Positions 24,434 through 27,617 of a stretch of DNA of 41,045 nt are shown here, piece after piece. A program made the position numbers and the translations under genes. The first letter of the stretch is position 1. Each line of letters begins with the position of its first letter. The notes under the pieces were generated by a model, which had not been told where the DNA came from, did not search any database, and saw only the letters and a program-made list of their open reading frames with translations. This stretch comes from an uncultured Acidobacteriota bacterium (GTDB taxonomy: Bacteria > Acidobacteriota > Vicinamibacteria > Fen-336), in the NCBI GenBank assembly GCA_902826455.1, contig CADEEV010000043.1, positions 1 through 41,045 on the forward strand, given 5' to 3'.

Positions 24434-24667
24434 TCAGGCCTTGGGCGCCGGCGGCGGCAGGTCGCGCGCCGGGCACTCGGACGCGAAGCCCATCTTTCCG
24501 TGGCTCCCGTCGCAGAACGGCTTGTTGGAGGAATGGCCGCAGCGGCAGAGCCCCAGGGCCGTCCGGCCGCCGAGCCCGAACGGTTTCCCGTCCTGGTCGA
24601 CGATCGTGATGTCTCCCTCGAGGCGCAGCGGGCCGTTGTTGCGCACGATCACCTTGAAATCCGACAT
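24434..24667 (-). CDS. CDGSH-type iron-sulfur protein
   Basis: 77 residues with a single CDGSH motif, CRCGHSSNKPFCDGSH, which binds a 2Fe-2S cluster through three cysteines and one histidine. The N-terminal beta segment (VIVRNNGPLRLEGDITIVD) is typical of small bacterial CDGSH proteins. Such proteins are redox- or iron-linked; no specific reaction is known. The start ATG 24667 is fixed by TAGAAT ending 8 bases upstream, with no Shine-Dalgarno, predicting a leaderless mRNA that also carries the lipoprotein, malQ, transporter and amylase genes. A 25-bp dyad covers this promoter. Confidence 0.9.
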   Translation of the reverse strand: MSDFKVIVRNNGPLRLEGDITIVDQDGKPFGLGGRTALGLCRCGHSSNKPFCDGSHGKMGFASECPARDLPPPAPKA

Positions 24668-24692
24668 GGGTTTCCATTCTACATGGAAGCCC
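24668..24692. promoter_or_regulatory. 25-bp dyad operator over the CDGSH/malQ operon promoter
   Basis: Left arm GGGTTTCCAT, centre TCTAC, right arm ATGGAAGCCC: nine of ten arm positions pair, the mismatch being T opposite G. It begins one base upstream of the CDGSH ATG and contains the TAGAAT -10. An additional ATGGAA half-site lies at 24701-24706. Position and symmetry suggest a repressor operator. Confidence 0.55.
24676..24681 (-). promoter_or_regulatory. -10 element of leaderless CDGSH/malQ operon promoter
   Basis: Reads TAGAAT on the minus strand and ends exactly 8 bases before ATG 24667. No -35 is recognised. Confidence 0.6.
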
Positions 24693-24721
24693 GAGGCGGC
24701 ATGGAATACGGGGCCGCGGGA

Positions 24722-24727
24722 TAGACT
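24722..24727 (+). promoter_or_regulatory. -10 element of leaderless promoter for coiled-coil gene
   Basis: TAGACT followed by 7 bases and ATG 24735. A GAGG directly touches the ATG, too close to act as a normal Shine-Dalgarno. Divergent from the CDGSH promoter. Confidence 0.55.
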
Positions 24728-24734
24728 CGTGAGG

Positions 24735-25922
24735 ATGGCACCCCGGGAGGAGACGAAGCCGAGACGGCCCCGACTCGAGAACAAGGTCGTGGACGCGGCC
24801 TTCGACCGGCTCGCGAAGCAGCGCGCCCTCCACACCCTGGTGCGCGGCGCGCTGCCCGTGGCGACGCTCAAGCGGCTCCTGAAGGACGCCATGCCGAAGA
24901 ACAAGGCGCGCGAGATGCCCGACGAGACCTGGTCGAGCCTGGCGGTCGGCATCTGCATGGAGAGCGCCGACTTCGGAGACACCCTCGCCGAGGCGCTCCA
25001 CGAGCGCGTGGGCTGGGACCGCGAGCCCGCCGCGATGGACGACTGGTGGCGCGCGGTGCGCGAGCGCCCGCTCGAGGCGCTCTGGATGGCCGCCCTCTCC
25101 TCCTCCAAGGACGTCAAGAAGGAATTCGCCCACATCGCGAGCCACTGCATCGAGAACTTCCGCTCCTCGCCCGAGTCGGTGCCGCCGTCCTGGGAGTACG
25201 TCGAGGGCCTGCTCGACGTCATGGCCGTGACGAACCAGGACATGCGCGACGCCGAGCGCGACGCCGACGACGCCGTCCGGAAGTACGAGGTGGAGCGCGA
25301 GCGCCTCGACGACCTGCGCGACGAGCTCCGGCGCCAGCGGCGCGAGCTCGCCGAGCTCCGGGCCGAGGTCGCGGACTACCGCCGCGAGGCGCCGGCCGCC
25401 CCCGCCGACGGCACACCGCTCTCCGACGAGGCGCGGCGCAGCGAGGATCTCGAGCGCCGCCTGCGCAAGTCGGAGAAGGAGCGCGAGCACCTCCACCGCC
25501 GCATCGAGCGCCTCGAGGACGCCCTCGAGGGACGCGAGGACGAGGGCGAGGCCGGAAGCGAGGCGGTCGAGACCGCGGCCGGTTCCGACCCAGCCGAGCT
25601 CGAGGACGCGAACCCGATCGCCGACGATCCCAACCCGCGCCGGCGCGTGATGCGCGCGATGCTGAAGAAGCTCCTGAAGAAGGGCAAGGTCGGCGCGTCC
25701 CACACCCACGAGGACAACGTGCATCGCGGCGTCGCCGACCACGAGAAGGGCCTCGCGAAGGAGGCGATCGACCTGCTGTACCGCGAGGGCTACTTCGTGC
25801 CGAAGCCCACCACGACCGACCCCCACGTCTCGATCGCCCCCGAGCGCGTGGCCGAGGTGAAGGCGATCATCGCCGGCGAGGTCCAGGACGCGCGCCTGCG
25901 GCGCTTCCTGGAGAGCGAGTGA
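24735..25922 (+). CDS. Coiled-coil protein with possible C-terminal winged-helix domain
   Basis: 395 residues from ATG 24735; upstream in-frame codons are rejected because the -10 lies there. Three regions are visible. Residues about 1-155 are a helical globular domain (KVVDAAFDRLAKQRALHTLV, WMAALSSSKDVKKEFAHIAS). Residues about 160-270 are a long charged coiled coil (KYEVERERLDDLRDELRRQR). After an acidic linker, residues about 305-395 form a basic alpha/beta module (MRAMLKKLLKKGKVGASHTH, EDNVHRGVADHEKGLAKEAI, DLLYREGYFVPKPTTTDPHV). This resembles a small winged-helix-like module I recall from archaeal proteins. No enzyme motif is seen. A nucleic-acid-associated role is inference. It overlaps ygfZ by four bases (GTGA). 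Confidence 0.82.
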   Translation: MAPREETKPRRPRLENKVVDAAFDRLAKQRALHTLVRGALPVATLKRLLKDAMPKNKAREMPDETWSSLAVGICMESADFGDTLAEALHERVGWDREPAAMDDWWRAVRERPLEALWMAALSSSKDVKKEFAHIASHCIENFRSSPESVPPSWEYVEGLLDVMAVTNQDMRDAERDADDAVRKYEVERERLDDLRDELRRQRRELAELRAEVADYRREAPAAPADGTPLSDEARRSEDLERRLRKSEKEREHLHRRIERLEDALEGREDEGEAGSEAVETAAGSDPAELEDANPIADDPNPRRRVMRAMLKKLLKKGKVGASHTHEDNVHRGVADHEKGLAKEAIDLLYREGYFVPKPTTTDPHVSIAPERVAEVKAIIAGEVQDARLRRFLESE

Positions 25923-26842
25923 GCGCCCTCGTCGCGCTCCCGGAGCGCGGCGTGCTCGTGGTCTCGGGACCGCAGCGCTCGAAGTTCCTCCACAACCTGC
26001 TGAGCCAGGACGTCGAGGGGCGCGCGGCCGGCCAGGGCGGCCTCGCGGTACTGATGGACGCCCGCGGCCACCTGCTCACGACGATGCGGGTGCTGGTCGG
26101 CGCGAACGAGATCCTGCTGGAGATGCCGCGGGAGCGCCTGGCCGCGATCGAGGCGCTGCTGGTCCACTACAAGGTGGGCACGCCCGTGCGCTTCGCCGTG
26201 CGGCCCGTGGCGATCCGCGCGCTGCTGGGCACGGACGTCGACGCGACGCTCGCGTCGCTCGCCGCCCCGGTCCCGGGCCCGGCGCCGCAGTCCCACGTCA
26301 CGGGCTCGGTCGCCGGCCAGCCGGTGCTGCTGGCGCGCGCCAGCGACCTGCCCTCGGGCGCCGTCGTCGTCCATTCGGCGCCCGAAGCCGCCGCGGCCGT
26401 GGATGCGGCCCTGCGCGGGGCCGGCGCGGCCGACATGGAGCGCGGGGCCTTCGACGCGTTGCGCATCCAGGAGGGCCGGCCGCTGTTCGACGTGGACCTC
26501 GGCCCGGAGAACCTGCTCCACGAGACCGGCCTCGTCGCCGAGTACCATTCCTCGAGCAAGGGGTGCTACGTGGGCCAGGAGGTCATCGCCCGTCTCGAGG
26601 CGCGCGGCGGCAACGTGAACAAGATGCTGCGGGGACTGCGGCTCTCGGGACCGACAGCGCCGGGCGCGAGCGTCACGTTCGAAGGCAAGGACGTCGGGCG
26701 CGTCACGAGCGCCGCGGTCTCCCCCGCCCTCGGCCCGATCGCCATGGGCTACGTCCACCGCAACCAGGCGACACCCGGCACGCTCGTCGAGGTCGACGGC
26801 CAGGCCGCGACGGTCGTCGCGCTTCCGATGCAGGGGTCATGA
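25919..26842 (+). CDS. ygfZ: YgfZ/GcvT-like folate-binding Fe-S maintenance protein
   Basis: 307 residues from GTG 25919, overlapping the previous stop. The YgfZ signature is present as SKGCYVGQEVIARLEARG, whose cysteine is the defining residue. The GcvT-like fold shows in RSKFLHNLLSQDVEG near the N-terminus and MGYVHRNQATPGTLVEV near the C-terminus. YgfZ binds tetrahydrofolate and helps assembly or repair of certain Fe-S enzymes such as MiaB. In this window, rich in Fe-S proteins (CCG protein, CDGSH protein), such a role fits. ATG of the adenosyltransferase overlaps its stop by four bases. Confidence 0.9.
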   Translation: MSALVALPERGVLVVSGPQRSKFLHNLLSQDVEGRAAGQGGLAVLMDARGHLLTTMRVLVGANEILLEMPRERLAAIEALLVHYKVGTPVRFAVRPVAIRALLGTDVDATLASLAAPVPGPAPQSHVTGSVAGQPVLLARASDLPSGAVVVHSAPEAAAAVDAALRGAGAADMERGAFDALRIQEGRPLFDVDLGPENLLHETGLVAEYHSSSKGCYVGQEVIARLEARGGNVNKMLRGLRLSGPTAPGASVTFEGKDVGRVTSAAVSPALGPIAMGYVHRNQATPGTLVEVDGQAATVVALPMQGS

Positions 26843-27381
26843 AGATCTACACGAAGACGGGCGACGAGGGGCAGACGGGGCTCGTGGGCGGCGCCCGCGT
26901 CGGCAAGGACGATCCGCGGGTCGCGGCCTACGGCGACGTCGACGAGGTCAACGCCGCCCTGGGCGTCGTGCTCGCCCACGTCAACGACGAGGACACGAAC
27001 GACCTGCTGCACCAGGTGCAGCGCGACCTGTTCGCCCTCGGAGCCCAGCTCGCCGATCCCGCCGATCGCGTGGCGGCGCAGAAGGAGAAGGCGCGCGTGA
27101 CGCCGGAGCACGTGGCCGTCCTGGAGCGCGCGATCGACGCGAGGGACGCCGTCCTCCCGCCGCTGACCGCGTTCGTCCTTCCGGGCGGCTCGCCGCTCGG
27201 GGCGTTCCTGCACCTGGCCCGCACCGTCTCGCGCCGCGCCGAGCGCAGCGTCGTGGCCCTGTCGCGGGCCAGCCACGTGGATCCCCTGCTGATCGTCTAT
27301 CTCAACCGGCTCTCGGACCTGCTGTTCGTGCTGGCCCGCTCCGAGAACCATCGCCGGGGCATGCCCGAAGCCCGCTGGTGA
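26839..27381 (+). CDS. PduO-type cob(I)alamin adenosyltransferase
   Basis: 180 residues, the usual size. It transfers adenosyl from ATP to cob(I)alamin, producing coenzyme B12. Motifs: KIYTKTGDEGQTGLVGGARV (ATP-binding N-terminus), DVDEVNAALG, FVLPGGSPLGAFLHLARTVS and CxRR-like ARTVSRRAERSV, then YLNRLSDLLFVLAR. All are characteristic of the PduO/MMAB family. Translation is coupled to ygfZ (ATGA) and to the next small gene (GTGA). No B12-dependent enzyme is in the window. Confidence 0.94.
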   Translation: MKIYTKTGDEGQTGLVGGARVGKDDPRVAAYGDVDEVNAALGVVLAHVNDEDTNDLLHQVQRDLFALGAQLADPADRVAAQKEKARVTPEHVAVLERAIDARDAVLPPLTAFVLPGGSPLGAFLHLARTVSRRAERSVVALSRASHVDPLLIVYLNRLSDLLFVLARSENHRRGMPEARW

Positions 27382-27617
27382 CGCTGCGGCCGGCGGTCGT
27401 CGCCGAGCTCGAGGGCCACGGCATCGTCGCCCGGCCCGGGGACACGCCCGCGTCGCTGCGCGAGCGCCTGAACGACGCCTACCTCGAGGACGTGCGGAGC
27501 CTCCGTGACCGCCAGCGCAGCGGCGAGATCCCGTTGCGCGACTATGCCGGCCACGTCGAGCGCCTGAAGCGGTCCTATCCGCTGCTCGGCCTCGGCCTGG
27601 AGCACTGGTCGCACTAG
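27378..27617 (+). CDS. 79-residue hypothetical protein coupled to adenosyltransferase
   Basis: Starts at GTG 27378, overlapping the adenosyltransferase stop (GTGA), so it is very likely translated. Predicted helical and soluble: RPAVVAELEGHGIVARPGDT, LRERLNDAYLEDVRSLRDRQ, GEIPLRDYAGHVERLKRSYP and a tail of LLGLGLEHW. The conserved-looking GEIP...DYAGHV and YPLLGL blocks suggest a real small family, which I recall only vaguely. No cofactor motif and no cysteine. It converges with the membrane-protein gene 3 bases away. Confidence 0.72.
   Translation: MTLRPAVVAELEGHGIVARPGDTPASLRERLNDAYLEDVRSLRDRQRSGEIPLRDYAGHVERLKRSYPLLGLGLEHWSH

Follow-up and report, generated by a model that had tools for sequence, protein, structure and literature searches.

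Genes of COG0354, the group of YgfZ, are frequently clustered with genes for diverse iron-sulfur (Fe-S) proteins according to the part of PMC3223725 consulted here, and YgfZ of E. coli is described, in the corresponding part of PMC13036160, as reducing IHF binding genome-wide and so tuning replication initiation, independently of MiaB. A winged helix joined to an anti-parallel coiled coil that makes the dimer is described for Sso10a of Sulfolobus, a protein of about 10 kDa (PMC4941522, in part). Investigation of a 41,045-nucleotide stretch of DNA from an uncultured Acidobacteriota bacterium (the window, which is contig C43 of the 5.26 Mb genome G000) revealed an operon at positions 24735-27617 whose first gene encodes P0001, a protein of an undescribed, lineage-restricted family for which a winged helix and a coiled coil are predicted. 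The gene lies immediately upstream of ygfZ in all four genomes that carry it, so that the linkage seen in the window is conserved. Judging by titles and the beginnings of abstracts, a search of the open-licence literature turned up no such operon of ygfZ with a coiled-coil protein and an adenosyltransferase.

As the initial annotation had it, the interval contains four co-directional genes on the plus strand (P0001, ygfZ, pduO and a gene for a 79-residue protein), with a four-base overlap at each of the three junctions (GTGA, ATGA and GTGA). The features are as follows.

24735..25922, plus strand: P0001, first gene of the operon, ATG start, 395 residues, homologues in G005, G006 and G011
24765..25229, plus strand: P0001 residues 11-165, all-helical N-terminal domain (predicted model)
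25230..25559, plus strand: P0001 residues 166-275, coiled coil in two stretches separated by an Ala/Pro-rich break (heptad test)
25620..25886, plus strand: P0001 residues 296-384, predicted winged-helix module with HTHEDNV-x-RG-xx-DH-x-KG (model, fold matches, conservation)
25919..26842, plus strand: YgfZ (COG0354/IBA57-like; P0002), folate-dependent Fe-S protein maintenance, GTG start, TIGR03317
26839..27381, plus strand: PduO-type ATP:cob(I)alamin adenosyltransferase, ATG start, TIGR00636 and PF01923
27378..27617, plus strand: P0004, conserved Acidobacteriota protein of 79 residues, function unassigned, GTG start, homologues in the phylum
24434..24667, minus strand: P0005, CDGSH-type iron-sulfur protein, divergent from P0001, PF09360

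P0001 as a gene, a protein and a family

Full-length homologues of P0001 with 51-53% identity were detected in G005, G006 and G011, and over the whole of P0001 the ratio of nonsynonymous to synonymous change (dN/dS) is 0.30 in the closest pair, G006-G011, which shows purifying selection in that pair. The values for the window against G005 (0.52) and against G006 (0.64) are weak because the proportion of synonymous differences (pS) is near 0.5. On the strength of the homologues in three other genomes and of the dN/dS of the closest pair, the sequences indicate that P0001 is a genuine gene. All family analyses rest on four sequences. Conservation is highest in the C-terminal module, where the window is 67-74% identical to G005 or G006, as against 42-51% elsewhere in the protein. 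Regarding synonymous positions, pS in the winged-helix stretch, the coil and the N-terminal part was 0.17, 0.34 and 0.25 for G006-G011 and 0.30, 0.48 and 0.54 for window-G006, with no clear dip for window-G005 (0.50, 0.54 and 0.48). The fewer synonymous differences in the winged-helix stretch perhaps reflect a constraint on the DNA before ygfZ, or chance.

The last 100 residues of P0001, modelled as the C-terminal module, gave a best model with a predicted local distance difference test score (pLDDT) of 86.7 and a predicted template modelling score of 0.78, the five models ranging from 75.4 to 86.7 in pLDDT. The model has helices at residues 7-21, 32-35, 41-56 and 75-85, and isolated strand residues at 60 and 70-73. 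When Foldseek's top 1000 chains from the PDB were re-aligned with VIA, 992 had Z of at least 2, 645 had Z of at least 5 and one had Z of at least 8, a Z below 8 being a value that may reflect just a common arrangement. The best match was CAP (4ev0_D, Z 8.2, 2.1 A over 74 residues), followed by TubR, SarA, the Z-beta domain of ADAR1 and a plasmid centromere binder. The module is thus predicted, from its model, to have the three-helix core and beta wing of a winged-helix fold, as the initial annotation had supposed; its description there as basic holds only mildly, at a net charge of +2 to +3. The HTHEDNV-x-RG-xx-DH-x-KG stretch spans the second helix of the module and the start of the third, and in many winged helices the third helix enters the DNA groove.

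Sequence searches placed the module in no described family. No winged-helix family of Pfam or NCBIfam matched P0001 up to E 1, the curated cut-off of MarR or any other Pfam transcription-regulator family was not reached, and the module alone matched only Ribosomal_L19e (E 0.15, in one of the four members). A module profile searched against PDB sequences gave two unconvincing matches (E 0.39 and 1.1), and whole P0001 gave seven against the PDB, none convincing (E 0.28-0.74). Regarding the proposed likeness to small archaeal modules, the guess at the fold is supported, and the plasmids, phages, viral contigs and single haloarchaeal megaplasmid searched gave no sign of sequence kinship: against plasmids and phages the best module match had E 2, none was confirmed on viral contigs, and none was found on one haloarchaeal megaplasmid.

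Compared with Sso10a, P0001 also pairs a winged helix with a coiled coil, both being predicted in P0001 and dimerisation and DNA binding presumed, and Foldseek listed an Sso10a-2 chain, 4hw0_C, for the module (E 0.27, rank 50). Sso10a proteins are DNA benders and bridgers in which the coil follows the winged helix, whereas P0001 has 395 residues, carries the coil before the winged helix and has an additional N-terminal helical domain; no sequence match between P0001 and Sso10a was found in the PDB search. CAP, TubR, SarA, MarR-type proteins and AspA of pNOB8 share the overall fold of the module (Z 6.7 to 8.2) but differ in that there is no sequence family match and in that the remainder of P0001 is unlike them. 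Actinobacterial YacP/NYN proteins have an N-terminal helical domain and a coiled coil; P0001 differs in having no NYN domain match, and kinship was dropped as there was no PF05991 match up to E 1. In 18 of 60 relatives NYN_YacP was matched by separate open reading frames (ORFs) of 154-557 residues, and the sole PF05991 match of G000, of 212 residues, is on contig C45. By title, the open-licence literature gave nothing relevant that joins NYN/YacP to a coiled coil and a winged helix.

Regarding the rest of the protein, the helical domain and the coiled coil of about 110 residues that had been read from the sequence were both borne out, the former in an all-helical model of residues 11-165 and the latter by a heptad test of residues 166-275. 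The best of five models of residues 11-165 had a pLDDT of 85.8 and the remaining four 56.7-63.8. Against solved structures this domain gave no convincing match (best Foldseek E 0.28; best VIA Z 4.2), and with one good model in five and four sequences this absence does not establish a new fold. A tblastn search of the N-terminal part against plasmids gave five matches, at E 0.8-10. In the best register, residues 166-214 and 228-275 each have 50% Leu, Ile, Val or Met at a and d positions, a score equalled by 15 of 2000 shuffles for the first stretch and 1 of 2000 for the second; for comparison, shuffles did as well in 1423 of 2000 cases for the N-terminal domain and 145 of 2000 for the winged-helix stretch. 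Because so few shuffles reach this score, the coiled coil is, by its sequence, beyond chance. Weak matches of P0001 to families of Pfam, NCBIfam, PHROGs and PADLOC are concentrated on the coil. Those to SMC, Rad50, DndD, JetC, tape-measure and plant filament proteins were rejected as an effect of composition, lying mainly on the coil and under the curated Pfam and NCBIfam cut-offs. One PHROG with unassigned function covers residues 36-77 at E 0.18.

With a full-length profile P0001 was found in four of 193 genomes of the class (Vicinamibacteria, Acidobacteriota). All carriers (G000, G005, G006 and G011, of three genera) belong to the window's family, in which they are four of 14 genomes. A match in G012 (E 3.4e-4), confined to profile positions 178-278 and with an internal stop, was rejected as coiled-coil noise. 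G013 belongs to the genus of G006 and G011 and has no P0001; since the same assembly lacks PduO and has a weak YgfZ match, the locus may be missing from it. Among 396 genomes of the phylum the module and N-terminal profiles each found G000 and G005 only, apart from rejected module matches; G006 and G011 were not among the N-terminal profile matches, presumably being outside that sample. The rejected matches, in G230, G277 and G227 (E 0.003-0.008, 18.0-19.9 bits), lie by eye antisense to a lepA-like ORF in G230 (L034), in a region occupied by a histidine-kinase-like ORF in G277 (L035) and in one occupied by a carboxylase/aldolase-like ORF in G227 (L036). A pattern scan of a collection of 84,980 species gave 92 pattern matches and two confirmed loci (G006 and G011), with patterns strict enough for distant relatives to escape. 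P0001 is an undescribed, lineage-restricted protein family.

Genes around P0001 and ygfZ

The CDGSH gene scores above the PF09360 cut-off (67 vs 29.5 bits) and is divergent from P0001 in three of the four carriers (window, G006 and G011). The 10 kb fetched from G005 showed no CDGSH gene; P0001 is preceded there by a family-31 glycosidase. In both ygfZ regions fetched from the sister family (G014 and G015), CDGSH is directly divergent from ygfZ and P0001 is absent, which suggests that P0001 was inserted between the two genes, probably in that direction; loss of P0001 in the sister family would yield an identical picture. Family members G003 and G010, which have no P0001, carry CDGSH some 3-4 kb upstream of ygfZ, and in G002 the upstream neighbour of ygfZ is a ferritin-like gene; part of the other family members' upstream neighbours were inspected, by eye. 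The locus resembles other YgfZ (COG0354) neighbourhoods in having Fe-S genes nearby, here CDGSH and in other Vicinamibacteria MutY, and differs from them in its coiled-coil winged-helix partner, of which the part of PMC3223725 consulted makes no mention.

In G006 (L021 4881-7906), ygfZ and pduO are separated by a TonB-dependent receptor gene, and pduO is separated from the 79-residue gene by one for a GIY-YIG protein; by eye, a GIY-YIG-like ORF also adjoins the 79-residue gene of G011. In the window, the gap between CDGSH and P0001 holds an inverted repeat with the core TTCCAT-5-ATGGAA at 24661-24699, which is not listed for the gaps of G006 or G011. Regarding expression signals, a sigma-70-type promoter was sought and not found, and the sole terminator-like site is at the chance rate. 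By eye, TAGACT stands just 5' of the P0001 start in the window (gap 24668-24734), G006 and G011, so near to it that the transcript could be almost leaderless.

Regarding the two identified genes that follow P0001, YgfZ scores above the NCBIfam TIGR03317 cut-off (63.3 vs 49 bits) and contains KGCYVGQE, which fits the YgfZ (COG0354) motif K-G-C-Y-x-G-Q-E, and PduO is above both of its cut-offs (TIGR00636, 195.8 vs 108.45 bits; PF01923, 207.6 vs 24). The initial annotation saw no obvious explanation for the pairing of these functions, a view weakened by the relatives. A YgfZ match was detected in 58 of 60, the weakest ones probably being GcvT paralogues, and ygfZ and pduO lie no more than 10 kb apart in 37 of the 49 relatives that match both, on the same strand and with ygfZ first in 36 of these 37; for most genomes the count takes each gene at its best-matching place, and weak second matches are excluded. 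Ten of the 37 close pairs are inside the window's family and 27 outside. In all 27 of the latter mutY lies between ygfZ and pduO, on the strand opposite to both in 26. Twelve of these regions, the ygfZ-mutY-pduO neighbourhoods L124-L132 and L136-L138 of other Vicinamibacteria, were fetched and have mutY in the same place, with the NUDIX (mutT-like) part separate or fused. MutY of L124 bears an Fe-S cluster domain (EndIII_4Fe-2S), which fits the habit of COG0354 genes, described in PMC3223725, of sitting with Fe-S genes. Squalene-synthase-like genes were seen by eye after pduO in several Vicinamibacteria neighbourhoods.

In each of the ten close pairs inside the window's family, ygfZ and pduO are co-directional and lie 0 to 2194 bases apart, and every one of these genomes has its best mutY match on a different contig. 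Most simply, the old neighbours ygfZ and pduO would have become a tandem when the mutY interval was lost, this being the presumed direction of change. Two observations weigh against this. The sister-family genomes G014, G015 and G016 have ygfZ and pduO on different contigs, and MutY of the window's family is mostly over the mutY cut-off (TIGR01084), whereas all 27 that lie between ygfZ and pduO elsewhere are under it; across the 60 genomes MutY exceeds the cut-off in 15, mostly of the window's family and the sister family. This split of the scores around the cut-off may mean that the class has two lineages of MutY, in which case the other families could have acquired the interval and the window's family need not have lost it. 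The open-licence literature yielded no paper joining ygfZ with mutY and none joining ygfZ with pduO. In part, the odd pairing of the operon genes seems to be a side effect of genome rearrangement.

The last gene, P0004, had been called an orphan, which it is not: matches were found in 29 of 297 Acidobacteriota genomes, window included, and no Pfam or NCBIfam family is above its cut-off. At the other 28 loci (L045-L072) neither YgfZ nor PduO was found within about 1.5 kb on each side, and the neighbours vary across the 14 other loci listed. The P0004 gene has pduO nearby in the window, G002, G006, G010 and G011. Going by these sequence matches, it is a conserved small protein and neither an orphan nor specific to this operon.

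Possible roles of P0001

We favour, at a probability of about 0.4, the reading that P0001 is a lineage-specific, dimeric winged-helix protein that would bind DNA and be functionally coupled to ygfZ. The two coiled-coil stretches would most likely dimerise the protein (or fold as a hairpin), the C-terminal winged helix would bind DNA, the N-terminal helical domain would be a sensing or partner-binding part, and the four-base overlap in the window would couple the translation of P0001 and ygfZ. Such a protein would most likely act as a regulator or organise DNA locally, in connection with iron-sulfur maintenance. As to its origin, P0001 would have entered the gap that separates ygfZ from the divergent CDGSH gene. 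The tandem of ygfZ and pduO would have arisen by loss of a mutY interval between two old neighbours.

Several observations count against this proposal. Since Foldseek gave no module match at E <= 0.001, the winged helix is an assignment from fold shape and does not yield a function, and winged helices bind proteins and RNA too. The net charge of the module, +2 to +3 over 90 residues, was found in all four proteins. Four of the five models of the N-terminal domain are poor, and four P0001 sequences were on hand for alignment and modelling. The four-base overlap of P0001 and ygfZ was found in the window, the ygfZ match starting 24-68 bases past the P0001 match in the other three carriers, and the window, G006 and G011 showed no palindrome common to their CDGSH-P0001 gaps. 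The operon can do without P0001, since six of the ten family genomes with ygfZ and pduO on one contig have none.

The low charge of the module also speaks for a different role, a serious rival though less probable, in which P0001 is an adaptor or scaffold whose winged helix binds protein, as in kleisin-like and other protein-binding winged helices, and which brings together YgfZ, the CDGSH protein or a client enzyme. The C-terminal winged helix of ScpA is among the fold matches (5h66_C, Z 6.9, 2.2 A over 65), the order of helical domain, coil and winged helix resembles that of adaptor proteins, and P0001 adjoins ygfZ in every carrier. However, DNA-binding winged helices head the fold matches, and most relatives have a YgfZ match (58/60) without having P0001 (4/60).

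On a par with the adaptor, and as serious a rival, is a neutral passenger, a P0001 with an unrelated job that stands next to ygfZ by chance, in which case the operon would be uninformative on its function. The ferritin-like gene in the place of P0001 in G002, the TonB receptor and GIY-YIG genes within the G006 cluster and the far wider spread of the ygfZ-pduO vicinity would all fit chance neighbours, but P0001 has stayed next to ygfZ in all four carriers, which span three genera and whose P0001 proteins are about 50% identical, and in the window the two genes overlap by four bases. An RNA- or ribosome-associated role, in which the winged helix binds structured RNA and P0001 acts with YgfZ in the modification of tRNA or ribosomal proteins (MiaB, RimO), is quite unlikely. 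The chain of a mitoribosome assembly intermediate that favours it (6yxx_BN, Z 6.8) is one of many fold matches, and no RNA-binding family is above its cut-off.

Returning to the DNA-binding reading, its furthest extension, drawn by analogy with the effect of YgfZ on IHF in E. coli, would make P0001 the DNA-organising (nucleoid) partner of YgfZ in this lineage. We consider this very improbable; if true, it would mean a hard-wired link between iron-sulfur state and chromosome state. What is new here is a lineage-restricted family, tied to a well-known gene of Fe-S maintenance, whose members combine an N-terminal helical domain with a predicted winged helix, and the locus illustrates that a seemingly puzzling operon can be a rearranged older gene neighbourhood. 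Should P0001 prove to bind DNA and to act with YgfZ, it would offer a tractable case for how YgfZ affects chromosome behaviour.

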